A program made the translations under genes and the position numbers. The notes below the pieces were generated by a model, which saw nothing but the letters and a program-made list of their open reading frames with translations, was not told the origin of the DNA and ran no database searches. From assembly GCA_950022655.1 (NCBI GenBank), contig OX465584.1, positions 65,348,722 to 65,412,721 of the forward strand: DNA of 64,000 bases, given 5' to 3'. Positions 4,712-46,170 of this stretch are shown piece after piece. The DNA comes from Alentia gelatinosa. Taxonomy: Eukaryota; Annelida; Polychaeta; Phyllodocida; Polynoidae. The number at the start of each line of letters is the position of its first letter. Within the stretch, counting starts at the first letter, position 1.

Positions 4712-4799
4712 TGGAGAGGCGGTCTCCTCTATCATCCCCGCACCTACCCTCACGCCCACGCGCTGTCTCCATTCTACCACACCCTTCAAACGCATCCAC

Positions 4800-4863
4800 A
4801 TCCAGGGTCTCTGTCTCTGTGTGTCTGTGTGTGTCTGTGTGTGTCTGTGTGTGTATGTGTGTG

Positions 4864-4894
<31 letters not shown>

Positions 4895-5515: not shown

Positions 5516-5559
5516 CTGTAAAGTGTCCACATCCAGGGCCTCTGTCTGCTTCTGTCTGT

Positions 5560-8912: not shown

Positions 8913-8993
8913 ATTCATCTATATAATATCTCAATATAATGGATGTGATCGAGGGCAGCATTATGCAAACTTTTTATATCACACACAAACCTC

Positions 8994-15946: not shown

Positions 15947-17160
15947 CCTATAATGTGACTAATGTTACGATTCCATTCCAAACTGCTGAGGTAATTTTCA
16001 CTCTGTCTTCCGACTGTACATAAACATGTGATGTAATTTTAGCCGCCATACTGCTTCCGGGTATGGAATTCTGTGCCTCAGTAGCTTGGAAGCCTGGCCT
16101 AGCTAGACTATAGGTAGGTAAAGGGTTCCATTTTTATGATTCATTATTGGTAACGCCTCCTGGTTCCCCTGTCATCCGCTAGAGGGCTCGGCAGAACTAG
16201 GTGTATGACAAGCGGATACCAGCCAAACCACTAGGCTGGTTCCCGGGGTATCCGCTAGTCACGGGCGGGCACCAGCCAAAGATGAAGCATGGTTGAAGGT
16301 CGTGCCTGTGGAACCTGTTACCTGCCCCTTATTTTTTATGGGCGGGAACCAGTCTAGTGCCTCAGCCACTAGACTCCAACCCTTGTTAAGCTGCCTTGCT
16401 GCCTCCAAGTGTCGGTGAAAGAGACTATCTTTGTTGTACTTATATTCAAAATATACACGCATGGACATAAAAGCATTGGAACACTGGCTTAAAAATTAAG
16501 AAATGACCCGCTATCCAAGCATAGGTCCAGGTCACATAAAACATCTGCTGGGAGAGTAAGAGACACTTCCAGGTAGTGGGTCAAGGAGCCACAGTTTAAA
16601 CCCAACCAGAGCTAACGTAGTGTAGCTCTGGTGTCCAGTGTAATGTTTGCACTGACAGAGAGACTAAGAACAACGAGTGAGTTCCATGAAAACACACTAG
16701 GAGGCGCCTCGACGCTATTCTGATTCCTCTTTTTCCCACCAGGTGACTCTAACTGTCGATGAATTCACGGCTTGGTCATATGGAAGAGTAAGGTTGAATA
16801 CTGAATGTTTATCATCTTCAAGTAGGGCATGATGTGGTTAAAACACATCTTATCGATGCATCTCATATTGTTTACATGTCTTTTTGAAAAGGCATTATTA
16901 CTGTTATAATTCTTAGTGCGAAAAGAAAACTACACAATGTCTTTTTTCGATCATATATGTATTCCCTAGTTCAGCTGCATAGAAGATGATGAAGTTATTT
17001 GAAGGTTTACAAATTCTACATCAATAGCTTGAGAGACTTTATGTGAACATAATTCCATGCTCTGATCACGAAAAAACTTACTTTAAAAGTGGGAAAAAGG
17101 CAGGTACCTACATATAATATGGTTTAGATTTGAATCTGAAAAGGTAAACAGAAAAATCTC
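15947..17160. other. No gene seen
   Basis: Contains short inverted words near 16195-16265 (acaagcggatacc / ggtatccgctagt) that may be a degraded repeat. No coding, RNA or other regulatory feature recognised. Confidence 0.4.
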
Positions 17161-18548
17161 CACTCACCATCACTCACCACCATACACCACACCCACCACA
17201 CACCACACCACACACACCCACCACACACCACCATACACCACACACCACACACCACTCACCACCATACACCATACACCACACACCCACCACCCGTCACACA
17301 CACCCACCACCACCACTCACCACCATACATCACACCACACACCACACACCACACACACCCACCACCACCACTCACCACACACCACACACACACACCACTC
17401 ACCACCATACACCACACACCACACACCACTCACCACACACCACATACCACACACCACTCACCACCATACACCACACACCACACACCACACACCACACACC
17501 ACACACCACACACTCACCACCATACACCACACACCACCACACACCACACACCACACATCACATACCACACACCACACACCACACACCACACACCACACAC
17601 CACACACCACACACCACACACCACACACCACACACCACACACCCCCACCACTCACCACACACCACACACCACACACCACAGACCACCACACACCACCACA
17701 CACCACACACCACACACCACACACCACACACCACACACCACACACCACACACCACACACCACTCACCACACACCACACACCACACACCACACACCACACA
17801 CCACACACCACACACCCCCACCACTCACCACACACCACACACCACACACCACAGACCACCACACACCACCACACACCACACACCACACACCACACACCAC
17901 ACACCATACACCACACACCACACACCACCACACACCACACACCATACACCACACACCACTCACCACCATACACCATACACCACACACACCACACACCACA
18001 CACACCACACACCACACACCACACACCACACACCACCACCACCCACCACACACCCCCACCACCACACACCACACACCACACACCACACACCACACACCAC
18101 TCACCACACACACCCACCACCACACACCCCCACCACTCACCACACACCACACACTACACACCACACACCACACGCCACACACCACACACCACACACCATA
18201 CACCACACACCACACACCACACACCACACACCACACACCACACACCACACACCACACACCACACACCACACACCACTCACCACACACCATCACCACACAC
18301 ACCCACCACCACACACCCCCACCACTCACCACACACCACACACCACACACCACACACCACACACCACACACCACACACCACACACCACACACCACACACC
18401 ACACACCACACACCACACACCACACACCACACACCATACACCACACACCACACACCACACACCACACACCACACACCACACACCACACACCACACACCAC
18501 ACACCCCCACCACTCACCACTCACCACACACCACTCACCATTCACCAT
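17161..18548. repeat. 10-bp satellite (ACCACACACC)n
   Basis: About 1.4 kb of near-perfect 'caccacacac' repeats with interspersed ccaccactcac and accatacacc variants. Open frames on the minus strand give only Val/Cys/Gly/Trp repeats and are artefacts. The array resumes at about 19297 after an insertion of hairpin elements. Confidence 0.95.
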
Positions 18549-18711
18549 CATATACGGAAACTGGCTTACTGTCTTCGTACGTCAAAAATACGCGGTGAAA
18601 TTTTGATTACATACATTCCGATACCGTAGGCAGAGGGATGTATGTGATCAATCATTTCATCAAGTATTTTGATGTACGTAGACGGTCAGCCTGTTTCCGT
18701 ATTATTATATA
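18549..18711. mobile_element. Hairpin element, family F
   Basis: Imperfect palindrome with arms atatacggaaactggcttac (18551) and, complementary to it, ggtcagcctgtttccgtatt (18684-18703). Inner arms are cgtacgtcaaaaatac and gtattttgatgtacg. The following segment, 18715-18835, matches 13065-13190 in reverse. It is inserted at the edge of the 10-bp satellite. Confidence 0.7.
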
Positions 18712-28085: not shown

Positions 28086-28226
28086 AATGAGGTTACACAG
28101 GTATCAAAAGACGATGTATCAGAAAACGATTGTCTAGAAAACGAAAGTATATACCAATGTGAAACGAGTTGTAAGGTTGAATATCCAAACGTAAGTTTAC
28201 CAAATCTTTATCGTCAGGACCAGATA

Positions 28227-30163
28227 ATGGATGGTTTTGTTGAAATTGATAAAGATTATCGGAGTAAGAAACCCGACAGTAGTAAACAGGATAGTAGTAT
28301 AGGAAAATTATGCTTTAGTCACGATGTATCAGCATCTGATCACGGTGTTGGCTCAAAAAATATCGTTCATTTCTGTGAGTGTGAATCTTGCGATAAAGAG
28401 CATGGAAATGTGACTATTTGTCATGGTTGTACAACCGATACTTGTAAAAGTGTATCACAAACCGAAAGTTATCGTCTTTGCATTGACGCAGGTTATGGTT
28501 TTCATTACCCCGTTTTCTATTCATGTACAGAGGGCAGTTGTACTTGTTCTTATACTTTTAACGGTGAACAAATACAATTACTACCATGCAGGTTTGCCTC
28601 AGCTATATTATCGTTGGAAGATCCCTCCGATAATGCCTGGTTTGTTTTCTCAGGAATTTGTAGAGGTTTTGATATCTTAGACCCAAGTAACCAAACCAGA
28701 TACTACCGTGAAAACTATGATTCTATTGAATCGGAACCGTTTTACGGAGAAATGTGTGACAAGATCAAAAAAGAACTCGCAGAAGGAAAGGTATCAATAG
28801 CGAATTCAGTTCCAGAATGTGTGCATTCGTTAGGAGCAGTATCAAAAAAGGATGGCTCGCTCAGACCCATAACAGATTGTAAACGCCCGGAAGGACTAAG
28901 TATCAATGCTAATATGGACTCAACAGTATCACGTTTTAGATTCAAAAACATAGATATGGCAGGGGAGTTGATAACTCCTAATGGTTTCTGTGGTATATCG
29001 GATATAAAGGATGCTTACCGAGCGGTCCATATTTCCCCCTCGCATCGAAAATATCAGGGTTTTTCTTGGCGTTTCCCAGAGGGTGAACGAATTATTTTTT
29101 CTGATAATCGTTTATGTTTTGGATCAAAAAGCACTCCTTTTATTTTTAACTCGATATCGGACTTCGTGGTAGAATGTATTTTGGACAAGGTTATACATGT
29201 TGTATAAATTATCTAGACGATTTCTTCGTTACTGGTCCCGACCACAAAAGTACCACAGATACTCAGACGGTTCTAAATAACACTTTAAACCTGTTGGGCT
29301 TCGAAATCAATCAAAACAAACTGGTAAAACCGGCCCAAAAGGTGACTTTCCTGGGCATTGATATAGACACTACCAAGATGGAATTTTCTCTTCCAAAAGA
29401 AAAAGTAGATAGAGCCAAAAAGGAAGTTAGCGACTGCTTAACGAAAAAATGGATATCTTACAAGAGTTTTGAACGAACAGTAGGCTACCTAGCACATTGC
29501 GCAACCATTATCTATGGCGGACGCACATATATGCAAGCCAGTTATGAATTTTTGAAAAAACACAAAAATCATAGACGTTTCATGCTCACAGATGAAGTTA
29601 TCGCTGACTTAAATTGGTGGAAGTCATTTATCGGAATATTCAACGGTAAAACTATGATTGTAAAACAAAAAGAAACAGACTTTCTGGTTACTGACTCCTC
29701 AATGTATGGATTCGGCGCCTTTGTTGATAACGATTTTATGTTTGGATCATGGGATAATAGCACTCCCACATGTAGACACACTGAAAGTTGCCCAACCATG
29801 GACAATTTTGACAATATAATAACAGTTCTTGAACTTTGGCCAATTGTCAAATCTTTTTCCAGGTGGTTGAATCGATTTTCAAACAAAGTGATACACGTCT
29901 ATACAGACAATACCCAAGTAAAATCGATGTTGCGCTCTGGAAAAAGCGCTAACGTTTCAGCTATGAAATGGCTGAGAGAATTGTATTGGATGTCAGCCTT
30001 ATACAATTTCCGTATCGTATCTCATTACATCCATACCACAGATAACATTTTCACAGATGCATTGTCTCGATTAAACTCTAATTCCCACGCTGATATCGCT
30101 AGGAAATGTATAAATGATTCCACAATACCATGTTGCTTTTTCAGAACGACAGCTCTACCTTGA
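28227..30163 (+). pseudogene. Ngaro reverse transcriptase-RNase H, frameshifted
   Basis: Two overlapping open frames encode one polyprotein. The first, 28227-29207 (326 codons, same frame as gag), has a Cys-rich N-terminal part, then RT motifs KKDGSLRPITD and the motif-A aspartate in SDIKDAYR (residue 259). The second, 29174-30163, begins just before the catalytic YLDD (its residues 13-16). It then carries RNase H with likely acidic residues D174, E220, D245 and D295 (TDSS, LELW, YTDN, FTDALS). Motif A and motif C lie in different frames that overlap at 29174-29207, so a frameshift mutation or programmed shift separates them. The C-terminus overlaps the recombinase ORF by 50 nt. The gene makes cDNA of the element RNA. 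Confidence 0.85.
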
Positions 30164-31097
30164 GAAAAAATCCATGGATCTAAAAATGGCAGGATGGGCA
30201 GATTCCACCTGGATCACAAAGAAATCGCAATGGAATCGATTTCTGAACTTTTGCGAGGACTATGAACTATCGCCGTTACCGGCTACTACCGATACAGTGT
30301 GCTTATATATCGCTTATCTGTCAGATTTTCTATCGTACTCCTCTATCACCAATTATATAAGTGCGATATGGTCTTTTCACGAGTTTTTTGATGTACCTCA
30401 CCCCCCAAAATCGTCTTATCAAATGAAAATGACCATGAGAGGTCTAAAACGAAAATTGGGCAATAACCCCAAGAGGTCTGAGGTTATTCTTCCGTCTCAA
30501 TTCTCATTGATTTATCACAATTTATGCCTTAAAATTGACCAGGACTTGATTTTCTGGTTTGCAGTGTGCTTATCATTCAGATGTCTACTAAGGAAATCGC
30601 ACGTTACAGCCTCTGTTCATACTTTATTATTTTCTGATCTGAAATTAACAGATTATGGTTTTGAGTTATCAATTAGGTCTTCAAAGACCATACAATATAA
30701 AGACCGGGTCTTGTATATCCCGGTAGTTCGTTCGAACTCCTGTTTATGTCCAGTATTTATATGGGAAATCATCTCGAAACGATATTTTCCCTCAAACTCG
30801 GATCCTCTGATTCCTAATGGTTTTTCTCCACCCAATTTCTGCGCTTATGATTACAAGGTTTTTTACAAGCGTTTCAAACTAGAATGTAACCGAATAGGAC
30901 TGAGAGGCAAGTTTACCCCTCATAGTCTAAGGAGAAGTGGAGCTACTTTTCTTTCATCCATGGGGATACCACTCCACAAAATTAAAGACATGGGCGATTG
31001 GCGCTCATGGAGTGTATTATTGTACCTCAAAGACACTATGGATCACAAGTTGATCAGGGATTATTCGATTGCTAAAGAGTTATCAAAGTATAGTTAA
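30114..31097 (+). CDS. Ngaro tyrosine recombinase (integrase)
   Basis: An intact 327-codon frame. The N-terminal half (residues about 20-125) is the all-helical core-binding domain. The catalytic half contains the box-I arginine in LLRKSH (R160), a lysine in the beta-hairpin region (about K191), box II HSLR (H270, R273), then W296 in GDWRSW and the nucleophile Y304 in LLYLKDT. This R-K-HxxR-W-Y set is that of tyrosine recombinases in DIRS-order retrotransposons, which integrate a circular cDNA without target duplication. The start overlaps the end of the RT/RNase H frame; another upstream start by coupling is possible. All catalytic residues are present, so this protein could still be active although the partner genes are broken. 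Confidence 0.9.
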   Translation: MIPQYHVAFSERQLYLEKKSMDLKMAGWADSTWITKKSQWNRFLNFCEDYELSPLPATTDTVCLYIAYLSDFLSYSSITNYISAIWSFHEFFDVPHPPKSSYQMKMTMRGLKRKLGNNPKRSEVILPSQFSLIYHNLCLKIDQDLIFWFAVCLSFRCLLRKSHVTASVHTLLFSDLKLTDYGFELSIRSSKTIQYKDRVLYIPVVRSNSCLCPVFIWEIISKRYFPSNSDPLIPNGFSPPNFCAYDYKVFYKRFKLECNRIGLRGKFTPHSLRRSGATFLSSMGIPLHKIKDMGDWRSWSVLLYLKDTMDHKLIRDYSIAKELSKYS

Positions 31098-31421: not shown

Positions 31422-31539
31422 CCGTGTGTTAACTCAATTAGCCACGAGTAATCCGCCAAGTAATACTCTGTTGTGTTATAATTAACCTATTATACTATTG
31501 TTTATATATCATACTTAGTGCTATTCGCACAGTAATATG
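31422..31539 (+). repeat. Ngaro split repeat B2
   Basis: Identical to B1. It ends at 'agtaatatg' (31539), after which the 53-bp satellite continues with gcgcggctcgcc. Confidence 0.93.
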
Positions 31540-31980
31540 GCGCGGCTCGCCTATGATATTATTAGTTTATTTAAGATGTCCACAGTTGTCGGCATGGCTC
31601 ACCTATGATATTATTAGTTTATTTAAGATGTCCCCCAATTGTCGACATGGCTCACCTATGATATTATTAGTTTATTTTAGATGTCCCCCACTTGTCGGCA
31701 CAGCTCACCTATGATATTATTAGTTTATTTAAGATGTCCCCCAATTGTCAGCACGGCTCACCTATGATATTATTAGTTTATTTAAGATGTCCCCGAGTTG
31801 TCGGCGCGGCTCACCTATGATATTATTAGTTTATTTAAGATGTCCCCCACTTGTCGGCGCGGCACACCTATGATATTATTAGTTTTTTTAAGATGTCCCC
31901 CAATTGTCGGCACAGCTCACCTATGATATTATAAGTTTATTTAAGATGTACCCCAGTTGTCGGCACAGCTCACCTATGAT
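31540..31980. repeat. 53-bp satellite, right part (about 8 units)
   Basis: Continuation of the 25490-26673 array after the Ngaro element, ending at 'cacctatgat'. Same unit and same type of variants. Confidence 0.95.
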
Positions 31981-32994
31981 TGAGAGGGAGCCGCTTCTAT
32001 GTCTGGGGGTTAATCTGATCCAGTTCTGGACATGTCCTGGCACATGCAGCCAGGACCCGTGGCAGAGAACGTGGATGTGATTGCTTTTGATATCTATGTT
32101 CAGGTGTCATGGGTAACTTTAGCCAGTAGCTTCTGTACACGAGAGAGGTGTTTCCAAGTCCTGGTGTAAGCTTACTCCATGCCCCACCTAACAATCCCTG
32201 GTAAATAGAACAGATGAGAGTTTCATAAAACCCGGCCAGCCTTTGTAAATGAAAATAAGGACATGAATATTCATAAGGTTGCATTAAAGCTTACGATTCG
32301 CTTGAGAAGTAATAACGCTTTTCAGTGGCGCCATCTGTGGTAGAACTTTAGAGGCAGTCGACTGCATTAGAACTAAATGATACCAGGGTGAGATACTATA
32401 TGGAAACAATAACGGAGACAGGGATTTGCCGTAGGAAAAAACTGTCTAGCTTGCTATTTGTAGATTGTGTATAGTTTTTTTATCATCTGATGTTTAAAAC
32501 TATTGTTATCAGTTAATCTTTATATACGTGTAATACGGCGCTACCATCTGCAGACTAAAACTCCACCAATAATGATCACATTATATATGAGTCGGTCAGT
32601 AGTTCTTGGGAAAGGTCAGTGGTATATATAATCTCACCGACTTTTGGTTTAAAATGGCCATCAATCATTCAATGCACTTCATTGCATAATTTAGAAAAGA
32701 AATTCAATGTCCATTTCTGTTTCCACCTGACGATAATTGCACTAAATGTGTCATAAAATCAGCCGCAATGCAGAATGCAATGATGGTGGTCATAATCGAT
32801 AAGTGGGAAAGCTACATAACACAAAGTTAACACCCCCGATTAGAGATAAATTTCCAGTTTTTCTATTATTCAATTATAATTTATTTGTCAGTCAGCGCAA
32901 GCATATTCTAAAAAAGAGCAAAAGGGAACCAGATGAAAGAAGTAAACGACTGATTCTATTTCGATTTTTTGCATTTTCAAAGTAGCACTCTCAT
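31981..32994. other. No gene seen
   Basis: About 1 kb between two satellites. No coding, RNA or repeat structure recognised; AT-rich in its right half. Confidence 0.4.
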
Positions 32995-33942
32995 CCATCT
33001 CACTGTCACACAGTAACACCCCCTCCCCTCCCATCTCACAGTCACACAGTAACACCCCCTCCCATCTCACAGTCACACAGTAACACCCCCTCCCCTCCCA
33101 TCTCACAGTCACACAGTAACACCCCCTCCCATCTCACAGTCACACAGTAACACCCCCTCCCCTCCCATCTCACAGTTACACAGTAACACCCCCTCCCATC
33201 TCACAGTCACACAGTAACACCCCCTCCCATCTCACAGTCACACAGTAACACCCCCTCCCATCTCACAGTCACACAGTAACACCCCCTCCCATCTCACAGT
33301 CACACAGTAACACCCCCTCCCATCTCACAGTCACACAGTAACACCCCCTCCCATCTCACAGTCACACAGTAACACCCCCTCCCCTCCCATCTCACAGTCA
33401 CACAGTAACACCCCCTCCCATCTCACAGTCACACAGTAACACCCCCTCCCCTCCCATCTCTCAGTCACACAGTAACACCCCCTCCCCTCCCATCTCACAG
33501 TCACACAGTAACACCCCCTCCCCTCCCATCTCACAGTCACACAGTAACACCCCCTCCCATCTAACAGTCACAGAGTAACACCCCCTCCCATCTCACAGTC
33601 ACACAGTAACACCCCCTCCCATCTCACTGTCACACAGTAACACCCCCTCCCATCTCACAGTCACACAGTAACACCCCCTCCCATCTCACAGTCACACAGT
33701 AACACCCCCTCCCATCTCACAGTCACACAGTAACACCCCCTCCCCTCTCGAACTCACACAGTAACACCCCCTCCCATCTCACAGTCACACAGTAACACCC
33801 CCTCCCATCTCACAGTCACACAGTAACACCCCCTCCCATCTCACAGTCACACAGTAACACCCCCTCCCCTCCCCTCTCACAGTCACACAGTAACACCCCC
33901 TCCCATCTAACAGTCACAGAGTAACACCCCCTCCCATCTCAC
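32995..33942. repeat. 31/36-bp satellite, left part
   Basis: Tandem unit tcacagtcacacagtaacac plus cccctcccatc (31 bp), with a 36-bp variant having an extra 'cctcc'. The array stops at 'atctcac' (33936-33942), where the LINE begins, and resumes at 41570 with the same 'atctcac'. Minus-strand open frames are repeat artefacts. Confidence 0.95.
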
Positions 33943-34139
33943 GTCTATATCATAACCATAACCATAATGACGTCAGAGTGAGCGGGGTTGGTTTGTAGTG
34001 GCAGCGCGAGGAAATAAGTGAAAACCAACAAATATTGAATCTGTAAGTACTGGAAATGCAGTGGAGAAGTCTATGAAATAGGCAAGAACAAGTGGAAATA
34101 ATCGAGAAGTCAAGAAAATAGCTGAAAATAGGCAAGAAA
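33943..34139 (+). promoter_or_regulatory. LINE 5' UTR, presumed internal promoter
   Basis: Begins with short ataacc repeats (cataaccataaccataatga), then a CRE-like tgacgtca at 33968-33975, and an A/G-rich leader up to the ORF1 ATG at 34140. LINEs need an internal promoter at this place; the specific role of the CRE-like site is inferred. Confidence 0.4.
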
Positions 34140-36923
34140 ATGGAGAAAAACTCACACCGGTGCACAAGGTCTTCAGCCGACCAAACGGCAGACATCTTGT
34201 CAACAAAGCCGATCGACCCGGGACAGGAAAGTTTGAAAGCTCCGCCTGAAAAACAACAAACACAAGGTAAATCAAATACATTGACAAAAAATACAAATAA
34301 CATTGAAAGTAATGATTCCAGCGATGAAGACAACATACCGCTTAGCCAATTACTACATGTAATGGGAGCTACGGGAGGAGATGTAAACAAGACGGGGCAG
34401 GCGAAAATAGGGGAGAAGGCTCCAGACACTAAGAAGAATGAAAGGGAATCCCCTGGGGAACAGATTAAGACTAAATCGGATAATATCAACAAACCAAACG
34501 AAGATCTATCAGACAGTATTATGATTGTGGATAGTCAGAGTAATGATCAATGTACAAGTAAAAATGAAAACAAAGATGAACCGACAGAGACAAACAAAAA
34601 TCAAACCGGGAATGAAAGTAATACAGCAATAGACGAAAATCCGAAAGACTCAAACGTGAAAATAACAAAAGTACCCCCAGTCAGAAAACCACGAGTTAAA
34701 AGATGTAGATCACATAGCACTGAATACTGCGAACTGGGAACAAAGATATCACCTCCAAATAAAGTACTAAACAGAAGACCTATAAAAAACTATATTGCAC
34801 CAAAACTAATCACAGTACCTGAAAATATGCTAGGGACCTGGATGGAACAAATGGGACAACATATGGAAAGTATAATAGAAAAGGTGCATACCAAGATGGA
34901 CACTCTAACTACAACACTTGAAGACACTCGATCAGATCTAAACATTTTTCAAAGAAGGGTAAACGAAAATGTAGAGAATCTAAATATCAAGCTAAAAGAA
35001 ACACATAAAGAAGTCTCAAGTATCAAAAAAGGAGTGAAACAAAGTGAAGAAAAACTAGATACGATGATGAATGAAACAAAGGTGGAAATAAAAAACGTGA
35101 AACGAAATCTAATGGAACAAATAGAAGAGCTCTCTGACAAGGTGATAAATACAAAAGACGACACAAGATATATCAGGAAACAAGTTGAAGAAAGTAGAAA
35201 CCACTTTGATGAAAAAATGAGAGTAGTTGAACAAGAGTTAGTTGAAATCAGAGAAAGCAATGAGAAGGAAGCTAGTGAACAAAATAGCAACTACAGGGAA
35301 ATGAGTAGAGAAATAAAAAACCTACGAGACGACATGGTAAAAAAATCAAATGAGATGACACAATTAGGAGAAAAAAGTGAAAAAAATCTAGACGAACTAA
35401 CTGAAAGGATGAAAAAGGCTCTTAGGATGGCTCAAGATGAAGTAAATGATATCTCTGACACCGTACACAGACATGACATGGAATTAACTCAAAATAGAAA
35501 TAACCCACAGCAAAATCAGTTGACTCTAAATGATAAATATTACTCACCAAGACGTCTGAACGTGTATGTAGAGGGAATGCGTGAGTCTTTTAATGAAGAC
35601 CCCTACAAAACTGCGATGCTTGTTCTTCATGAGATCTCTGATGAAATATCAATGGCTGACATAAACTTGGCACAGCGAATTAGAGGGCGTGACCGCAACA
35701 CTCGAGGAAATCCAGCTCTACTCATCTGTTTCACCTCTGTAAGGATCAGAGATTATGTTCTGAAAAACAAACGAAAACTCAAGGATAGTGAAGGTTTCGA
35801 AAACATATATTTAAATGCAGACGAAACACCTGAAACGAGAAAAGCGCGGAGCGTTGCTCGAAATGCGGCTAACTACTGCAGACAAAGAGGTTATACGACT
35901 ATCTTAAAGGGACCAGAATTTTGCATACAAGGCACATGGTATAATGGCTACAACACTCAAAACATCCCAGATGACTTGCTACCGTGGTCCTCCACAAAAG
36001 ACCCAACACAGAAACTACGAAATTACAATAGTACACTACAACGCCAAAAGGTCTGGGAAAATTTAGTGACAATACCAGAAGAGGAACTTGACAAGGGAAA
36101 CAAAGAATCATTCGAAAAAATACAGGTAGCACATGATAGAAATACAGAAACGGATGTTGTTAAGGAAACTGAGCGTATACAAAATGAACAAACAAATATA
36201 AACAACAATGAACAAAAAGTGGACTCACCTAAAGAAAATGACACAGTAACGGTACATGCCTTACTCACCCAGACCACACCCGAGACTGCTGAAAATACGG
36301 TGAATGACGACCCGACTATAAAAATAGTGCAACCTGAGAAACCGGGTGAACCAGGAATCCAACAAGGAATAAGGCCAACAAAAGCTGGACTTGTGTTTCG
36401 GGGGGCTGATGCCTTTTTAAGTAATTTCCATCGTGCGACACTTAAATATAATGGAGTAATATACACAACATCAGAACAATGTTTTCAGGCTGAAAAGTGT
36501 AGGCAAAATGACAGACCGGATCTGCTACTAGAAGTAATGCAAAACGAGTCTCCGCTGCGTTGCAAAAGGATAGGGGACCAATGTGAAGTAAATCTTGCCT
36601 GGATAAATAACAGAGAAGCAATTATGAAAAACATTGTGGAAACTAAATTCAGGCAAAACCAAACTCTGGGAGAAAAACTTATACAAACCACCCCACACAA
36701 CATAATAGAGGGGACCAAAGACCGATTTTGGGGAGGAGGCCAATCAATGGAGGACAAAGAATATGAAGTAGGTAGATATGGAGGAAGAAATAGGCTAGGA
36801 GAAATCCTGCTGGAGATAAGAACTGAATTAAAAAGAGAACAAGCGTGTAAAGCGCTAAAGGTAGTAACCCCCAAGGCGGTAACAAGTGCTGAACTTCAAC
36901 ACCAGGTGGAAACTACGGTATAA
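34140..36923 (+). CDS. LINE ORF1: coiled coil + RRM/CTD-like + NADAR domain
   Basis: 927 codons. Residues 1-230 are acidic, polar and probably disordered. About 230-450 is a long coiled coil rich in Glu/Lys heptads, expected to trimerise as in other LINE ORF1 proteins. About 470-550 (LNVYVEGM...LAQRIRGRD) looks like the RRM of L1-type ORF1, followed by a CTD-like stretch (IYLNADETPETRKARSVARN) to about 615; together these should bind the element RNA. After an acidic linker, about 751-897 is a clear NADAR domain: LVFRGADAFLSNF, SEQCFQAEKCR (E779), a W..R..IM..IVETKFRQN segment, FWGGG (W864-G867) and a G.NRLGEILLEIR end (G882-R894). NADAR proteins act as N-glycosidases on ADP-ribose-related compounds, and some reverse ADP-ribosylation of guanine. 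Fusion to a LINE ORF1 is unusual. Role in the element inferred. Confidence 0.92.
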   Translation: MEKNSHRCTRSSADQTADILSTKPIDPGQESLKAPPEKQQTQGKSNTLTKNTNNIESNDSSDEDNIPLSQLLHVMGATGGDVNKTGQAKIGEKAPDTKKNERESPGEQIKTKSDNINKPNEDLSDSIMIVDSQSNDQCTSKNENKDEPTETNKNQTGNESNTAIDENPKDSNVKITKVPPVRKPRVKRCRSHSTEYCELGTKISPPNKVLNRRPIKNYIAPKLITVPENMLGTWMEQMGQHMESIIEKVHTKMDTLTTTLEDTRSDLNIFQRRVNENVENLNIKLKETHKEVSSIKKGVKQSEEKLDTMMNETKVEIKNVKRNLMEQIEELSDKVINTKDDTRYIRKQVEESRNHFDEKMRVVEQELVEIRESNEKEASEQNSNYREMSREIKNLRDDMVKKSNEMTQLGEKSEKNLDELTERMKKALRMAQDEVNDISDTVHRHDMELTQNRNNPQQNQLTLNDKYYSPRRLNVYVEGMRESFNEDPYKTAMLVLHEISDEISMADINLAQRIRGRDRNTRGNPALLICFTSVRIRDYVLKNKRKLKDSEGFENIYLNADETPETRKARSVARNAANYCRQRGYTTILKGPEFCIQGTWYNGYNTQNIPDDLLPWSSTKDPTQKLRNYNSTLQRQKVWENLVTIPEEELDKGNKESFEKIQVAHDRNTETDVVKETERIQNEQTNINNNEQKVDSPKENDTVTVHALLTQTTPETAENTVNDDPTIKIVQPEKPGEPGIQQGIRPTKAGLVFRGADAFLSNFHRATLKYNGVIYTTSEQCFQAEKCRQNDRPDLLLEVMQNESPLRCKRIGDQCEVNLAWINNREAIMKNIVETKFRQNQTLGEKLIQTTPHNIIEGTKDRFWGGGQSMEDKEYEVGRYGGRNRLGEILLEIRTELKREQACKALKVVTPKAVTSAELQHQVETTV

Positions 36924-37039
36924 CAAATTGCGCATGACAGGAAAAGTTGCTTGTAGCCGCCATCTTGATTTATGGATACATGACTCAAAGACCTGCCACT
37001 GAAGAATAGTACCTAAATCCGGATATAAATGCAACAAAA

Positions 37040-37708
37040 ATGAATAACACCTGGCCTTATTATTTGATAATTGGAGACTCACGGGCGCGACATCTACAAC
37101 CCATCATCAACGAGCTAAGAGGACCGGATTGTAAGGTTATATATATACCAGGGGCGACTGTTCAAGAAATCACGAATGCAGCGGTGCGTGAATTGAGGTA
37201 TGTAAAGGCCCTCGGACATAACTACAGAGCTATATATACTATTGCAGGTATAAATAACATTACCCAACGATTAATTCGACCTGTGCGGATCTCAGTCAAG
37301 CCTGTAAGTGCTAATATCCTGATTGAAGAACTTTTAACTGTATATGAGGATTTCTGTTTAGCAATAGCGGCCATGGATCCAATGTGCGAAGTCGTCATCG
37401 GTTCCATATATGCCCTAGACCTACGAGTTGCGAACCGTCGTATGGGAAGGAAGCACAAGGACCAAGATAAACTAGAGGTAGTGGTAAAGGCCGTAAATGA
37501 GGGGATTACTAGAATCAACACAACCCATCAGCTGTACACCCCCTACATAGGACGTGAAATACATCGGAATGTGCGGAACGAGCCTACGAGACACCTCTAT
37601 TATAAACTATTTGACGGAACTCATCCAGATGAACGATCCCAAAGAAACATAGGAAGACTATTAAGCATGTGCATTGACAAGAATACCCAGTATGGACGTC
37701 ATAACTGA
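37040..37708 (+). CDS. LINE accessory ORF: SGNH-type hydrolase/esterase
   Basis: 222 codons, 116 bp after ORF1 and in a different frame. The SGNH blocks are visible: IIGDSRARH near the start (nucleophile S14), YIPGAT (G38), AGINNIT (G70, N73) and FDGTHPDERSQRNIG (D192, H195). This is the Ser-Gly-Asn-His set of the GDSL-like esterase fold. Esterase domains are known in ORF1 of some CR1-like LINEs, and SGNH hydrolases occur in some Ngaro elements, where their job is unclear. Lipid or acetyl-ester cleavage and membrane association have been proposed for such domains. Here it is a separate ORF rather than a fusion. How it is translated (reinitiation, spliced or internal entry) is not visible. The size fits a minimal SGNH domain. 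No signal peptide is seen. Confidence 0.85.
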   Translation: MNNTWPYYLIIGDSRARHLQPIINELRGPDCKVIYIPGATVQEITNAAVRELRYVKALGHNYRAIYTIAGINNITQRLIRPVRISVKPVSANILIEELLTVYEDFCLAIAAMDPMCEVVIGSIYALDLRVANRRMGRKHKDQDKLEVVVKAVNEGITRINTTHQLYTPYIGREIHRNVRNEPTRHLYYKLFDGTHPDERSQRNIGRLLSMCIDKNTQYGRHN

Positions 37709-38420
37709 AACTATGTAAGAACTATAAGAGAGAAAACTGTTTGAGTAGTCAAGGGCATGAATAATCATCTACGACTATAACTAAGTCAACAGACAAGTAC
37801 TATTACTAAAATATGTGTTCATAAGAACCAAACAAGACAGTAATAACTCTCAGGAAAGCGTATATATTTAGAGTATTATCATTTAATATAGAATAGCCTG
37901 AAATGTAGTTTGGAAATGTGTTGTTAATCACAAAAGTTTAATGATATAAGAAATGACTACTCTGTTCCTTCTCGCTGCTACTACACTACACCCTAATTAT
38001 TCTAAATTTTGAATTATTATTCTATTATGGGTATTTTTGATAAATGTATTAATATGTGTTACTTGTTCTGTGTTTTCACATGTAACTATGCTGATATGGA
38101 ATCTAATGATCCCATACCGGCTCCATTGACGATATATATGCTATATGGTCAATGGTGTTTGCACCCTTTTGTTATTTTTGAAGTCAGGACTTTCAATATA
38201 TATTGGATTACGATGTATCTGATATTAATGTTTATCCCTGAAATCAAGACACAAGACATATCTTTGAATATGAATTACTTGACAATATTTTTTCAATCCG
38301 ATAAGCAACTGCAAATATGTATGACATCAGTTATGTTTTATAAAATTGTGTTAAATGTTTATATTTCAAGATTATTTCAGAAAATACACAGACATATGTC
38401 GAGCTTAAGAGGGCTACATT
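37709..38420 (+). other. Long inter-ORF spacer in the LINE
   Basis: 712 bp, AT-rich, between the SGNH stop and the ORF2 ATG. It contains an open frame of 156 codons (38009-38479, frame of the SGNH ORF) that overlaps the start of ORF2 by 59 nt and encodes a hydrophobic, Tyr/Ile/Met-rich sequence with no recognised domain. This could be chance, a membrane peptide, or a region for internal translation initiation. Spacers this long are uncommon in LINEs. Confidence 0.45.
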
Positions 38421-41327
38421 GTGACAACGTATGGCAACGATGGACTTATAAACCTCATGATGTCATACATAAATCCTGATCAACTAAATGCAAGTAAAGG
38501 ATTGAAGATGGTAACGATTAACATAAGAAGCATGTATAAGAGACTAGATGATTTTAAATTGATTTTCAGAAATATTGACCTTATTGCAGTTACTGAGACC
38601 TGGCTGAATACTAAATATTCGGCTGACATGCTAAACCTACCTAATATGAGTATATATAGAATGGATAGACAATATGAAGAAAAAAAGAAGGGGGGTGGAG
38701 TAGCTTTATATCTAAATCGCAAACATGTACAATTCCTGATTGAATATCCTGATTTATCAATGTCCACAAAAGAAATTGAAGTTTTAGTGTGCACTATAGA
38801 GAACCCTAATCACAAAAAACTTTTAATTATATCTGTTTATAGACCACCTGGGAAATATGTCCAAGAATGTTATGATTACCTTGAAAAATTAATAGATGAT
38901 CAGCGCTTTGAACAACACGAAACATGGATTTTAGGAGACTTAAATGTCAATAGTACAAGTACTAACTGCCCAAAAAACAAAATCATGAGAGATTTTTTAC
39001 TTAATAATAATTTAAGTCTATTAAAAACCAAACCAACTTTTTTGTTCAAAACCGGAAGTAGCACAATAGATCATATTTACACTAATAGCAAGTTTGTCTT
39101 AGAAAGTGGTAATCTAAATTATTATGTTTCTGATCATGTCATCATTTATGCTATAAGAAAAAAACTGAAAGAAAAGATTATAAGAAAGTTCATATCTTTT
39201 CGAAATCAGAAAAAATTAACCGAGGAAAGTTTAACAAAAAATTTCACGAAAGAATGTTTTAAAAAATCTAGTGAAACGGAAAACTGTGAATCTTATCTAG
39301 CATTTATCGAAAGTACCCTAGACAAACTAGCTCCGGTAGTAACAAAGCAGATGAAATCTATAGGCGGAGAAGAAGTGAGTATCTTAGTATCAAAGAAGAT
39401 CGAAGAACGAAAACAAATTCTTAATGACCTAGCAGAATGTACAGACCCAACTATTAGGAGACCAAGACTCAGAAGAGCACGAAGATTAGGTAGAGAAATT
39501 AGTCTTGGACTAAGACAAACGAAAGCAAAAAGAGTTCATGAGAACCTAAGAATCCACAAAAATAGCCCGAAAAAATTCTGGAGAGAAATAAATAAAATCT
39601 GGATAAATGACAATCAGCTGAAATCAAATTTTCCAATAAAAAAGGGCGAAATTCTAAAAGATAAGTGCAATGATTTAAACAAATATTTTATCAATATCGG
39701 AAGGGACAATCCACATCAAGATGATCCACCAAGACCAAGTGAGGAAGAAGAAGATGAAGACTATGGTGGTACCCAAGACGATCTGGACCTTATTTTGGAG
39801 CAGACAAATGTGGATGAAGTGGTAAAAACCGTAAAAGGGTTAGACAACAATAAAAGCACTGGCATGGTCAAAGTAAATGGGTACCTATTGAAACGAATAT
39901 TACTAAGAAATCCAGATATTATTGTAGACATGATAAATGATTGTTTTAAGACCGGCTTATTTCCAGATGTATTGAAAAAGGGGACAATAACACCAATTCC
40001 CAAGGAAGGGGACCTATCAATGTTTACAAATTGGCGGCCTATTACTGTTCTAAATTTGATGTCCAAAATTTTTGAAAAAATTATTCATAAACGTCTACTT
40101 GATAACTTTACGAAACTAAAAATAATATCTGACAAACAATTTGGATTTTTACCTGGAAGGTCTACGGCACAAGCAATTTTCTCAGTGATAACAGCACTAA
40201 CAAGTGCCCTAGATAGAAAGAAGATAGTATCAATAGCTTTTTTAGACTTTCGAAAGGCATTTGATTCGGTAAATCACAATTTACTTATAAATAAACTATT
40301 TGAATATAATTTTAACAATAATACTCTTCGACTAGTACAGAGTTATTTAAGGAATCGGGAAGTAAATCTTAAGCTAGGTGATGTAATTTCGGACTTTATG
40401 TGTACAAAATGTGGTGTTCCTCAAGGGTCAGTACTTGGCCCTTTATTATTTTTGATATTTATTAATGATATAGTTGATATTCCTTATAGCTCACTGCCGA
40501 TCCTCTATGCTGACGATATTGCTCTCCTTACCTTTGGTGATACTCAGGAACAGGTTACTCTACTTCAACGGAATAGCCTGGAATTAGTCTATCAATGGAC
40601 AGTTAAGAACAAAATTCGATTAAACTATGGGAAAACAAAGATCATGTGGTTTGGTAATATACGAGGATTAGATAAACAAATGGATATAGAAATAGGAGAA
40701 AATACCATTAAAGCTGTAAGTAAGTATAGGTATCTAGGACTAGTAATAGACAACTGTCTGACGTTTAATGACCAATATAAAAGGATGATTAAAGACTTTA
40801 ACCAGAAACTTTTTAAATTTAGGAAAGTACGATATCTACTAAACACAGAAGCGAGTATAAAGCTGGTGAAACATATGTTACTGCCTTTGATTGAGTATGC
40901 TGATCATGTGCAAACATTGATGACTAAGGATAAGAAACAAAAACTCCAAACCCTAGTAAATAAAGCATTACGCACTGCGATAGGGAGAAATGCCAAGGAT
41001 ATTAGTAATTATGATTTATATTCTCTCTGTAAAATAAGACCACTACATATGAGACGTGTGAATCACTTACTGAATCTGATAAAATGGTGGACAAATGAAG
41101 AGCAACATGTGTATGATAGCAAGACAAAGAGAACTAGAAGTGAAGAGAAGATTAAAATTAAACTCCAAAAACCAAGAACTGAACGATTCAAAAACTCGCC
41201 TCTGTACGTGGGATGCAAGTACTGGGATCGTCTTCCGGTCCAACAACAGCAAAAGCCGTATGGAGATGCCTTTAAAGCTAATCTTAAAGAAGTAATGATG
41301 TCAATGGATATACTTGATGAAACTTAA
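38421..41327 (+). CDS. LINE ORF2: endonuclease and reverse transcriptase
   Basis: 968 codons. Residues about 29-245 are an apurinic/apyrimidinic-type endonuclease: TINIRS (N34), VTETWL (E59), SVYRPPG, GDLNVN (D173, N175), STIDHIYTN (D217, H218) and SDHVI (D238, H239). This domain nicks the target to prime reverse transcription. The RT spans about 470-760: NWRPITVLN, FGFLPGRSTAQA, FLDFRKAFDSVNH, GVPQGSVLGP and YADD (Y696-D699, the catalytic pair). A C-terminal helical region (LPLIEYADHVQ onward) typical of CR1-like and related LINEs runs to the end. There is no RNase H and no CCHC knuckle. Frame intact and all catalytic residues present. The start chosen is the first ATG; the endonuclease begins about 28 residues later. 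Confidence 0.94.
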   Translation: MTTYGNDGLINLMMSYINPDQLNASKGLKMVTINIRSMYKRLDDFKLIFRNIDLIAVTETWLNTKYSADMLNLPNMSIYRMDRQYEEKKKGGGVALYLNRKHVQFLIEYPDLSMSTKEIEVLVCTIENPNHKKLLIISVYRPPGKYVQECYDYLEKLIDDQRFEQHETWILGDLNVNSTSTNCPKNKIMRDFLLNNNLSLLKTKPTFLFKTGSSTIDHIYTNSKFVLESGNLNYYVSDHVIIYAIRKKLKEKIIRKFISFRNQKKLTEESLTKNFTKECFKKSSETENCESYLAFIESTLDKLAPVVTKQMKSIGGEEVSILVSKKIEERKQILNDLAECTDPTIRRPRLRRARRLGREISLGLRQTKAKRVHENLRIHKNSPKKFWREINKIWINDNQLKSNFPIKKGEILKDKCNDLNKYFINIGRDNPHQDDPPRPSEEEEDEDYGGTQDDLDLILEQTNVDEVVKTVKGLDNNKSTGMVKVNGYLLKRILLRNPDIIVDMINDCFKTGLFPDVLKKGTITPIPKEGDLSMFTNWRPITVLNLMSKIFEKIIHKRLLDNFTKLKIISDKQFGFLPGRSTAQAIFSVITALTSALDRKKIVSIAFLDFRKAFDSVNHNLLINKLFEYNFNNNTLRLVQSYLRNREVNLKLGDVISDFMCTKCGVPQGSVLGPLLFLIFINDIVDIPYSSLPILYADDIALLTFGDTQEQVTLLQRNSLELVYQWTVKNKIRLNYGKTKIMWFGNIRGLDKQMDIEIGENTIKAVSKYRYLGLVIDNCLTFNDQYKRMIKDFNQKLFKFRKVRYLLNTEASIKLVKHMLLPLIEYADHVQTLMTKDKKQKLQTLVNKALRTAIGRNAKDISNYDLYSLCKIRPLHMRRVNHLLNLIKWWTNEEQHVYDSKTKRTRSEEKIKIKLQKPRTERFKNSPLYVGCKYWDRLPVQQQQKPYGDAFKANLKEVMMSMDILDET

Positions 41328-41570
41328 TTTAAAAAAAAAATATCACGAGATATACAGAATAGAAAGTTCATAAGAACTAAATCGCTTAACTTTAACTTTA
41401 ACTTTAATTGTATGGTCCTGTGATGATCTTGTTTGTACTGTCACTATCGTTGTCCTGTTATGTCCGTATCTTGTGTATATGTGACTCCAAAGTGGAAGAA
41501 CACCCCTGGATGGTGAACTTTGTACGTCGTGAAACCTTTTCATTGAATAAAAAAAAAAAAAAAAAAAAAA
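41328..41570 (+). terminator. LINE 3' UTR, AATAAA and poly(A) tail
   Basis: 243 bp after ORF2 including an ctttaactttaactttaac repeat (41393-41408), a polyadenylation signal aataaa at 41546-41551 and an A run to 41570. The tail joins directly to the duplicated target atctcac. Confidence 0.85.
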
Positions 41571-44057
41571 TCTCACAGTCACACAGTAACACCCCCTCCC
41601 CTCCCATCTCACAGTCACACAGTAACACCCCCTCCCCTCCCACCTCACAGTAACACCCCCTCCCATCTCACAGTCACACAGTAACACCCCCTCCCCTCCC
41701 TCCTCACAGTAACACCCCCTCCCCACTCACAGTCACACAGTAACACCCCGTCCCATCTCACAGTCACACAGTAACACCCCCTCCCCTCTCACAGTCACAC
41801 AGTAACACCCCCTCCCCTCCCATCACACAGTCACACAGTAACACCCCCTCCCATCTCACAGTCACACAGTAACACCCCCTCCCATCTCACAGTCACACAG
41901 TAACACCCACTCCCCTCCCATCACACAGTCACACAGTAACACCCCCTCCCATCTCACAGTCACACAGTAACACCCCCTCCCATCTCACAGTCACACAGTA
42001 ACACCGCCTCCCATCTCACAGTCACACAGTAACACCCCCTCCCCTCCCATCACACAGTCACACAGTAACACCCCCTCCCATCTTACAGTAACACAGTAAC
42101 ACCCCCTCCCATCTCACAGTCACACAGTAACACCCCCTCCCCTCCCATCACACAGTCACACAGTAACACCCCCTCCCATCTCACAGTCACACAGTAACAC
42201 CCCCTCCCATCTCACAGTCACACAGTAACACCCCCTCCCATCTCACAGTCACACAGTAACACCCCCTCCCATCTCACAGTCACACAGTAACACCCCCTCC
42301 CATCTCACAGTCACACAGTAACACCCCCTCCCCTCCCATCACACAGTCACACAGTAACACCCCCTCCCATCTCACAGTCACACAGTAACACCCCCTCCCA
42401 TCTCACAGTCACACAGTAACACCCCCTCCCATCTCACAGTCACACAGTAACACCCCCTCCCCTCCCATCTCACAGTCACACAGTAACACCCCCTCCCCTC
42501 CCATCTTACAGTCACATAGTAACACCCCCTCCTCCCCATCTCACAGTCACACAGTAACACCCCCTCCCCTCCCATCTCACAGTCACACAGTAACACCCCC
42601 TCCCCTCCCATCTTACAGTCACACAGTAACACCCCCTCCCCTCCCATCTCACAGTCACACAGTAACACCCCCTCCCCTCCCATCTCACAGTCACACAGTA
42701 ACACCCCCTCCCCTCCCATCTTACAGTCACACAGTAACACCCCCTCCCCTCCCATCTCACAGTCACACAGTAACACCCCCTCCCATCTCACAGTCACACA
42801 GTAACACCCCCTCCCATCTCACAGTCACACAGTAACACCCCCTCCCATCTCACAGTCACACAGTAACACCCCCTCCCCTCTCACAGTCACACAGTAACAC
42901 CCCCTCCCATCTCACAGTCACACAGTAACACCCCCTCCCATCTCACAGTCACACAGTAACACCCCCTCCCCTCCCATCTCACAGTCACACAGTAACACCC
43001 CCTCCCCTCCCATCTTACAGTCACATAGTAACACCCCCTCCCCCCCATCTCACAGTCACACAGTAACACCCCCTCCCCTCCCATCTCACAGTCACACAGT
43101 AACACCCCCTCCCCTCCCATCTCACAGTCACACAGTAACACCCCCTCCCATCTCACAGTCACACAGTAACACCCCCTCCCATCTCACAGTCACACAGTAA
43201 CACCCCCTCCCCTCTCACAGTCACACAGTAACACCCCCTCCCATCTCACAGTCACACAGTAACACCCCCTCCCCTCCCATCTCACAGTCACACAGTAACA
43301 CCCCCTCCCCTCCCATCTTACAGTCACATAGTAACACCCCCTCCCCCCCATCTCACAGTCACACAGTAACACCCCCTCCCCTCCCATCTCACAGTCACAC
43401 AGTAACACCCCCTCCCCTCCCATCTTACAGTCACACAGTAACACCCCCTCCCCTCCCATCTCACAGTCACACAGTAACACCCCCTCCCCTCCCATCTCAC
43501 AGTCACACAGTAACACCCCCTCCCCTCCCATCTTACAGTCACATAGTAACACCCCCTCCCCCCCATCTCACAGTCACACAGTAACACCCCCTCCCATCTC
43601 ACAGTCACACACTTACACCCCCTCCCATCTCACAGTCACACAGTAACACCCCCTCCCATCTCACAGTCACACAGTAACACCCCCTCCCATCTCACAGTCA
43701 CACAGTAACACCCCCTCCCATCTCACAGTCACACAGTAACACCCCCTCCCATCTCACAGTCACACAATTACACCCCCTCCCATCTCACAGTCACACAGTA
43801 ACACCCCCTCCCATCTCACAGTCACACAGTAACACCCCCTCCCATCTCACAGTCACACAGTCACACCCCCTCCCATCTCACAGTCACACAGTAACACCCC
43901 CTCCCATCTCACAGTCACACAGTAACACCCCCTCCCCTCTCACAGTCACACAGTAACACCCCCTCCCCTCTCACAGTCACACAGTAACACCCCCTCCCAT
44001 CTCACAGTCACACAGTAACACCCCCTCCCATCTCACAGTCACACAGTAACACCCCCT
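41571..44057. repeat. 31/36-bp satellite, right part (about 2.5 kb)
   Basis: Same array as 32995-33942, resuming after the LINE. It mixes 31- and 36-bp units. Blocks of 36-bp units recur (for example around 42450-42780, 42960-43140 and 43260-43580), each with the variant 'cttacagtcacatagtaac', which shows higher-order duplication. Minus-strand open frames are artefacts. Confidence 0.95.
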
Positions 44058-45165: not shown

Positions 45166-45469
45166 ATATAAGACATGGGCAGCGTGTATATTGATACATG
45201 AAGCATATGGATATGTTATATGTATGCTCCTGGTTGCAAACGGATATCGTTCATGCTACAGCGTATGGGGAAATGTAGTGCATATGAAAAATTGTGCACA
45301 CATACTTCAATAAAAAAAAATTGTGAAAAAATGTATTAATTGGTTTCCTTGGAGTCATTCTACACAAAATCTTCGCATCTGATTTGATATTCTTATTGAC
45401 ATTACGCGACAGTTCCTCGGAGCATACGGCCGTATGTCTCAAAACTAGTCAATATTGTCTATTTATGGA
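45166..45469. other. No gene seen
   Basis: AT-rich, with a poly(A)-like stretch near 45311. Nothing recognised. Confidence 0.35.
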
Positions 45470-46170
45470 GATGTCATGTATGGGGTTGTATTTGGCTGAC
45501 ATGTATGGGGTTGTAATGTATTATTTTTTACAGGGTTGTCATGTTTGGATTGTCATGTATAGGGGGTCATTATGGGATTGTCATGTATGGGGTGTAATTA
45601 TGGGGTGTCATTATGAGGTTGTTACGTATGAGGTTGTCATGTATGGGCTTATCATGTATTGGATTGTCGCATATGGGATTGTCGCATATGGGGTTGTCAT
45701 GTATGGGGTTGTCATGTATGGGGTTGTCATGTATGGGGTTGTCATGTTTGGGTTGTCATGTATGGGTTGTCATGTATGGGTTGTCATGTATGGGTTGTCA
45801 TGTATGGGTTGCCATGTATGGGTTGTCATGTATGGGTTGTCATGTATGGGGTTGTCATGTATGGGTTGTCATATATGGGGTTGTAAAGTATGGGCTGTCA
45901 TGTATGGGTTGTCATGTATGGGGTTGTCATGTATGGGGTTGTCATGTATATGGGGTTTTCATGTATGAGTTGTCATGTATGGGTTGTCATGTATGGGGTT
46001 GTCATGTATGGGGTTGTCATGTATGGGGTTGTCATGTATGGGGTTGTCATGTATGGGGTTGTCATGTATGGGTTGTCATATATGGGGTTGTCATGTATGG
46101 GGTTGTAATATGGGTTGTCATGTATGGGTTGTCATGTATGGGGTTGTCATGAATGGGTTGTCATGTACAG
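45470..46170. repeat. 15/16-bp minisatellite (GGTTGTCATGTATGGG)n
   Basis: About 45 imperfect copies of ggttgtcatgtatggg with 15- and 16-bp variants. Open frames of Met/Tyr/Gly/Cys/His repeats on the + strand are by-products. Confidence 0.95.

Follow-up and report, generated by a model that had tools for sequence, protein, structure and literature searches.

A YbiA-type NADAR domain at the C-terminal end of ORF1 in LINE retrotransposons of the annelid Alentia gelatinosa

Tx1 elements belong to the L1 superfamily of long interspersed nuclear elements (LINEs). In several Tx1 families of the oyster Crassostrea gigas, the first open reading frame (ORF1) carries a NADAR domain; the available text of that study gives this in one sentence, calls the role unclear and suggests RNA processing (PMC12477816, Genome Biol 2025). 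The same study describes NADAR in brown-algal Gypsy elements, which likewise represent capture of the domain by a retroelement, although these are long terminal repeat (LTR) elements with the domain in Pol rather than in ORF1 (PMC12477816). Titles and abstract openings in the literature on the NADAR domain, on YbiA and transposition, and on DUF1768 yielded no further retrotransposon cases. In animal RNA viruses, including picornaviruses of annelids and bivalves, NADARs have been argued to target host ADP-ribosylation (PMC9503650). The accessible part of a paper on NADAR specificity describes the roles of NADARs in eukaryotes, including animals, as unclear (PMC11125620). Here we describe a LINE within a stretch of 64,000 nucleotides from the polynoid annelid Alentia gelatinosa (GCA_950022655.1, contig OX465584.1, positions 65,348,722 to 65,412,721 of the forward strand; this whole stretch is referred to as the window), together with its relatives in the same genome. 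Like the oyster elements, it has a YbiA-type NADAR in ORF1; unlike them, its reverse transcriptase (RT) is not L1/Tx1-like, and an SGNH-esterase ORF, a selection test and a shared cassette go unmentioned in the available text on the oyster. The kind of fusion is known from one printed sentence; as far as searches show, the LINE with an RT unlike that of L1/Tx1, its accompanying esterase ORF, the occurrence of the cassette in two LINE superfamilies and the evidence of selection are new.

The window LINE is structurally intact (Table 1). Its ORF1 comprises a coiled-coil-like region and a region resembling an RNA recognition motif (RRM) with a C-terminal domain (CTD), and it ends in a YbiA-type NADAR with a low ratio of nonsynonymous to synonymous substitution rates (dN/dS). 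ORF1 is followed by a 222-residue middle ORF and then by ORF2, which holds endonuclease and RT domains. A blastn search of the element against the window finds the element alone, and LTRs are therefore absent; together with the endonuclease and RT of ORF2, a poly-A tail and a target-site duplication, this identifies a LINE, or non-LTR retrotransposon. The duplicated sequence, ATCTCAC, lies directly before the 5' junction and is repeated directly after the poly-A tail; its length of 7 bp is approximate because the flank is repetitive.

The original prediction had placed a NADAR domain at the C-terminus of this ORF1, and profile searches bear this out: the domain scores 89.7 bits against PF08719 (curated cut-off 35.1) and 92.8 bits against TIGR02464 (cut-off 73.7), and it has the NADAR fold. 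A chance match is rejected. The active site was compared with that of 8bau, a YbiA-type oomycete NADAR that hydrolyses guanine-ADP-ribose and whose ligand contacts have been reported (PMC11543638). Seven of the eight ADP-ribose contacts checked are kept (E43/E779, K50/K786, W89/W821, R93/R825, E125/E857, D130/D861 and W133/W864), in agreement with the predicted conservation of likely key residues, E779 and W864 among them; K75, Y84 and D86 are further contacts named for 8bau outside these eight (PMC11543638). A Glu, rather than Asp or His, at the E125 position defines the YbiA subfamily (PMC11543638), and the window domain has Glu857 there. In the C7 NADAR of E. coli, guanine-ADP-ribose hydrolysis is impaired when the equivalents of K50 and E125 (K95 and D171) are changed; at the E43 position Gln impairs it and Ala has only a minor effect in vitro, and none of the substitutions at the three positions rescues cells (PMC11543638). 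The remaining contact, Arg79 of 8bau, is replaced by Asp813 in the window; 93 of the 122 aligned NADARs have R or K in this column, which varies within the family and is therefore no strict definer of it. Relative to both 8bau and E. coli YbiA (2b3w), the window domain thus has Asp for Arg79, a shortened spacing of three residues between the Glu857 and Asp861 places, and the fusion to ORF1.

The NADAR domain appears to be preserved by selection. The nearest copy of the element (L147) is about 4% diverged and shows decay: its linker is partly, and its ORF2 mostly, missing or unaligned, the ORF2 piece contains one stop, and the ORF1 match contains one TAA. The two copies differ at 3.2% of NADAR bases. 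By Nei-Gojobori counts, this single pair, which contains its own control in the linker ahead of the NADAR, gives 12 synonymous and 3 nonsynonymous changes (V773L, T850S and I856V) over residues 745-900, a dN/dS of 0.06, versus 5.5 and 18.5 changes and a dN/dS of 0.92 in the linker (p=0.0011 by Fisher's test, linker counts rounded to 6/18). Elsewhere in the element, synonymous and nonsynonymous counts are 18/6 in the coiled coil (dN/dS 0.07), 9/6 in the RRM-CTD region (0.18), 14.5/19.5 in the N-terminal 227 residues (0.33), 20/8 in the SGNH ORF (0.11) and 31/9 in the ORF2 piece (0.07). Among the other pairs that can be formed from 20 related ORF1s, two fall in a usable dS range. In L128/L140 the NADAR has a dN/dS of 0.07, on five changes only, and the preceding stretch 0.26; in L133/L144 the values are 0.16, at a dS of 1.1, and 0.07. 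The stretch before the NADAR is more constrained than the NADAR itself in this second pair, so in L1-type elements it cannot serve as a neutral control.

Related elements are numerous in the assembly (1.234 Gb searched). PF08719 gave 3136 first-look candidates, and the best 150, once scored, all exceed the Pfam cut-off, with a stop inside the match in four. Taking the best-scoring candidates biases this sample toward intact copies, and the 150 are a lower bound because the window NADAR, at 89.7 bits, falls outside them. A search with the complete ORF1, in which 49 of 4353 candidates were scored, returned 62 matches at 47 places including the window, and 46 of the 47 places listed span both the RRM-like part and the NADAR; relatives without a NADAR could lie outside the best candidates scored. 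The fusion had been predicted as a feature of one element; in this genome it is instead shared by LINEs with two types of RT. This emerges from 20 stretches (L127-L146) chosen among the 150 best-scoring NADAR matches so as to cover a range of ORF lengths; they are not a random sample, nor are they independent (L128/L140 and L132/L134 being near-identical pairs). Fifteen are window-type LINEs (ORF1-NADAR, SGNH-like ORF, endonuclease-RT), some in broken frames; four have an L1-type RT, and one is a host-like LRAT gene. All 15 window-type LINEs have an ORF of 177-279 residues with GDSR or SDSR directly behind ORF1, tblastn finds the RRM-like part in 12, and the RT box reads GVPQGS or GIPQGS in 13, L138 and L146 having RT matches without the pattern.

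Judged by their sequences, the four remaining LINEs (L129, L131, L133 and L144) are L1-superfamily elements whose ORF1 carries NADAR, in line with what is reported for oyster Tx1 elements. The motifs GTRQGCCLSP and FADD occur in L129, L131 and L144, whereas L133 was read only at its FADD piece; the ORF2 frames of L129 and L144 span about 1270 residues. L129 ORF2 matches human L1 ORF2p at 374 bits over almost its full length and R2 at 64. By contrast, the window RT scores 70 bits against human L1 and 72 against R2, and its box, GVPQGSVLGP, is not of the L1 type; on these RT scores, membership of the window element in Tx1 or the L1 superfamily is rejected. Among the ORF2 matches of the window-type element L128 at 1e-5, R2 is listed and L1 is not. 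On its RT motif, the window element may be of the Jockey/CR1/L2 kind; a literature text search for its RT box gave no match.

The same ORF1 architecture, usually with an SGNH-esterase-like ORF behind it, is therefore present in LINEs of two RT types within one genome. Before the NADAR, the ORF1s of 10 window-type and 4 L1-type elements align over 140 columns (hhalign probability 98.5%, E=3e-15). Remnants of the SGNH ORF lie behind ORF1 in two of the four L1-type loci, L133 (start missing) and L144 (broken), and were not found behind ORF1 in L129 and L131. In a tree of 16 RT rows the two RT types stand about 5 changes per column apart, and the window-type RT groups broadly track the NADAR groups. 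These observations suggest that LINE superfamilies have exchanged an ORF1 that carries an enzyme. ORF1 exchange has earlier been described for PHD and esterase ORF1s (PMC4120745), and ORF1 types, their exchange and the LINE esterase are treated in two papers (PMC4120745, PMC3905857).

For the function of the domain we favour, at somewhat under an even chance, a chain of events built from sequence and from analogy with studied NADARs. The ORF1 protein (ORF1p) would bind the element's RNA and multimerise as in LINE-1, so that the NADAR would be carried on the ribonucleoprotein (RNP). There it would act as an N-glycosidase that removes ADP-ribose from nucleic acid of the element itself; judging from characterised NADARs, the modified base would most likely be guanine. 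Removal would undo a host-imposed ADP-ribosylation that would otherwise block translation, reverse transcription or integration. The NADAR would then be a counter-defence domain, comparable to the NADARs in the polyproteins of animal RNA viruses; those too lie inside a protein of an animal genetic parasite and have been proposed to serve counter-defence, although their bearers are positive-strand RNA viruses and not retrotransposons (PMC9503650). Two premises of the original prediction agree with published work: NADARs reverse guanine ADP-ribosylation (PMC11543638), and guanine-directed ADP-ribosylation of DNA is found in six clams, its purpose not being given in the available text (PMC11209040). 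If the domain is active, it would point to ADP-ribosylation of nucleic acids as a host defence against retrotransposons and give a concrete substrate to seek; the element itself offers a direct test, with the linker as internal control.

Several observations weigh against this counter-defence reading. The exact-family dN/dS comes from one pair with a decayed sister copy, and the RRM-like part has no match in Pfam or the PDB, Transposase_22 and L1 ORF1p included. In a set of 27 LINE-type or LINE-like NADARs (among them two LRAT-associated rows, P0002 and L145, and several near-identical rows), the Arg79 place is R or K in 11, versus 22 of 30 others, and is Asp813 in the window; the R93 place is Glu or Gln in 5 of the 27 and the Asp861 place His or Asn in 3. 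Such relaxed positions may mean that the ligand differs or that some copies have lost activity. The relaxation at Arg79 would suit a domain whose substrate, instead of ADP-ribosylated bases, is an NAD derivative that is small or lies at an RNA end (cyclic or linear ADP-ribose signals, ADP-ribose-1''-phosphate, NAD-type 5' ends), so that it dampens a diffusible signal of the host or brings the element's RNA to maturity. NADARs work as N-glycosidases on riboflavin intermediates, and it has been proposed that they take part in RNA processing or counter soluble signals (PMC9503650, PMC9303266). That the domain is fused to a presumed RNA-packaging ORF1, and is not a free enzyme, speaks for nucleic acid or an RNP as its substrate, and we regard action on an NAD derivative as unlikely. 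It is distinctly unlikely that the NADAR is kept in ORF1p as a module binding ADP-ribose, a nucleotide or RNA, and not as a working enzyme. Asp813 in place of the pyrophosphate contact and the substitutions at the R93 and Asp861 places would fit such a module, as would the remark of the authors of the SNA-3 study that loss of function on mutation of conserved residues may be structural (PMC9303266); the equivalents of Glu43, Lys50 and Glu125, however, are kept in the window and in nearly all of the 27 (Glu in 27, Lys in 26 with Arg in P0002, and Glu in 27). The view that the NADAR is a functionless capture draws on the same single-pair selection test and on far divergence of the domain, since raw NADAR identity between window-type and L1-type elements (mean 33.5%, 84 pairs) is hardly above that between L1-type and bacterial or phage NADARs (31.5%, 116 pairs). 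Most active-site columns are nevertheless conserved across these very divergent families, the fusion recurs in nearly every ORF1 place listed, and the domain is constrained beside a linker that is not. A functionless capture, disfavoured by dN/dS and prevalence, is thus highly improbable, and the predicted absence of a dead passenger probably holds (dN/dS 0.06 versus 0.92, p=0.0011, in one pair).

A separate question is whether the shared cassette reflects exchange, or convergence after separate acquisition of NADAR by L1/Tx1-type and window-type LINEs. NADAR-bearing retroelements arose more than once overall, because the brown-algal Gypsy elements have the domain in Pol (PMC12477816), and the low raw identity between the NADARs of the two types counts against exchange. 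The spacing between the Glu857 and Asp861 places argues the other way: it is three residues in all 27 LINE-type or LINE-like NADARs and four or five in the 30 others, and in an earlier set of 117 NADARs with both residues aligned the three-residue spacing occurred in the window and P0002 only. A tree of 52 NADARs, which like the further trees below contains no other NADARs of animals or viruses, separates the 23 rows of LINE type or host-like kind as a single clade (support 98/92, bootstrap unsettled) from 29 rows of bacterial, phage and metagenome origin. The L1-type rows are nested within the window-type rows (97/86), although a clade of window-type rows alone, as separate acquisition would allow, is not rejected (approximately unbiased test, p-AU 0.22). 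The long-branched L119 was dropped for this tree; in a 53-row tree that includes it, L119 falls among the LINE NADARs and the LINE-type rows are not one clade, a one-clade tree not being rejected (p-AU 0.29). The RRM-CTD region is homologous between the two types, as are the SGNH remnants in two of the four L1-type loci, and separate acquisition seems rather unlikely. A broader reading, somewhat unlikely when taken as a whole, sees the ORF1 cassette (coiled coil, RRM-like region and NADAR, with the SGNH ORF) as transferable among LINE superfamilies, its movement being driven by a host defence that ADP-ribosylates the nucleic acid of retrotransposons. LINEs would carry a dedicated eraser, equivalent to the NADAR antitoxins found in bacterial DarT systems, and hosts would have recruited it into LRAT genes.

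That last step concerns two repeat-rich, apparently host-like LRAT proteins in which a NADAR with the LINE-type loop lies at the C-terminal end. In P0002 (1386 residues, source ena), an LRAT domain is joined by an RRM-like region and the NADAR; the latter two follow each other as in the window ORF1 and match it at 28% in the RRM-like region (2e-10; score z=16.4 against 2000 shuffles) and 34% in the NADAR (2e-21). L145 contains a 1040-residue frame (L145:873-3992) with LRAT and a LINE-type NADAR, and no RT match occurs in L145. The window and P0002 NADARs are unjoined in a free tree of 122 rows; in a test on 40 of these rows, the tree that joins them is 31.9 log units better (p-AU 0.908), and with more LINE rows P0002 takes a basal position in the LINE-type clade. 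Its mean raw identity is nonetheless higher to bacterial and phage rows (35.4%) than to LINE rows (32.3%), which counts against exchange. Recruitment of LINE ORF1 pieces into LRAT genes is the simplest reading of these sequences, the raw identities of P0002 being less clear.

Table 1. Coordinates of the NADAR-bearing LINE and its parts, numbered from the first nucleotide of the window.
Feature	Position	Strand	Remarks
5' copy of 7-bp target-site duplication	33936..33942	+	3' copy = 41570-41576
Whole LINE insertion, ~7.63 kb	33943..41569	+	minisatellite (31/36-nt) on both flanks; junctions read
ORF1, 927 residues	34140..36923	+	N-terminal region, coiled coil, RRM-like/CTD region, linker, NADAR
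Coiled-coil-like region, residues 228-464	34821..35531	+	proline-free 228-445, heptad signal
RRM-like + CTD region, residues 474-614	35559..35981	+	homology to L1-type ORF1s of the genome and to P0002
Fast-evolving linker, residues 621-744	36000..36371	+	internal control; dN/dS 0.92 versus sister copy, 104/124 codons
NADAR domain, YbiA type, residues 758-898	36411..36833	+	profile matches, fold, dN/dS 0.06 over residues 745-900
Glu779 (= E43 of oomycete NADAR)	36474..36476	+	Glu in 122/122 aligned NADARs
Lys786 (= K50)	36495-36497	+	Lys in 118/122 aligned NADARs
Asp813 at Arg79 place (pyrophosphate contact)	36576..36578	+	departure from family
Glu857, Asp861, Trp864 (E125, D130, W133)	36708..36731	+	shortened 3-residue E-D spacing
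Middle ORF, 222 residues, SGNH-esterase-like	37040..37708	+	GDSR, GINN, DGTH blocks
ORF2, 968 residues (mechanical GTG start)	38421..41327	+	endonuclease + RT, box GVPQGSVLGPLLF, YADD
AATAAA merging into poly-A tail	41546..41569	+	3' end of the insertion

The heptad power of the coiled-coil-like region is equalled in 1 of 1000 shuffles. The RRM label of the next region, and its likeness to the RRM and CTD of LINE-1 ORF1, are our own assumption and are named by no library; in the predicted structure this part lies mostly below 60 on the predicted local distance difference test (pLDDT), and its similarity to the same region of P0002 is significant (E=2e-10). For the four L1-type ORF1s, Pfam at E 10 listed 25 of 30 families, mostly coiled-coil ones, and Transposase_22 is absent among those listed.

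The middle ORF is SGNH-esterase-like, a designation suggested by its sequence blocks and by a homologue in L127. Its own Pfam score is weak and below cut-off (E=0.17), it reads GINN rather than GxND, and its single-sequence model, at pLDDT 41, is unusable. The L127 homologue (blastp 3e-20 to the window ORF) scores 25.7 bits against PF00657 (cut-off 23.6) and matches PF13472 at 2.8e-7, slightly below cut-off. Across 15 homologues, the DxxH block is absent in 2 and the GxN[DN] pattern in 4. As in LINEs with an SGNH-esterase ORF1 (ZfL2-1 type, PMC3905857), an SGNH-like protein is encoded upstream of the endonuclease-RT ORF, and the window ORF has GDS, GxN and DxxH blocks; in the window element, however, the esterase-like protein occupies a separate middle ORF, and ORF1 encodes the coiled-coil/RRM-like/NADAR protein.

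Outside this genome, 118 NADAR loci from bacterial and viral collections (all 38 from genomes and the best 80 of 100 viral) gave no tblastn match at E 1e-3 to ORF2, the SGNH ORF or the non-NADAR part of ORF1, and no relatives of ORF1 or ORF2 were found in viral contigs. A protein search with residues 465-927 returned nothing at E 0.01 among 5560 candidates, and a further protein search found P0003 only; the search with residues 465-927 is insensitive, because P0002 was found by another search. A different architecture is seen in P0001 (1280 residues, source lgn), in which NADAR occurs together with a YAcAr (SLOG) domain and an ASCH stretch that scores below threshold, presumably an NAD-derivative conflict type.

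Within the A. gelatinosa genome, the strongest PF08719 match (3e-50) is a 242-residue frame, L119:1402-2127, that lacks the LINE-type loop and is probably the host's own NADAR gene. SGNH-ORF, endonuclease and RT pieces of the same kind flank the element in L135 (L135:205-366 and 8594-10000), which suggests neighbouring or nested insertions. The window has no Rfam matches at gathering score and no tRNA genes. Its other tandem arrays have 14/15-nt and 53-nt units and are accompanied by long repetitive frames (45462-46152, 31531-32033, 2562-5564 and 17087-18629); the LINE sits in a separate array. At window positions 28086-31097, overlapping frames encode parts of an RT, an RNase H-like piece and a domain of the phage-integrase (tyrosine recombinase) type; we take this retroelement to be DIRS/Ngaro-like.

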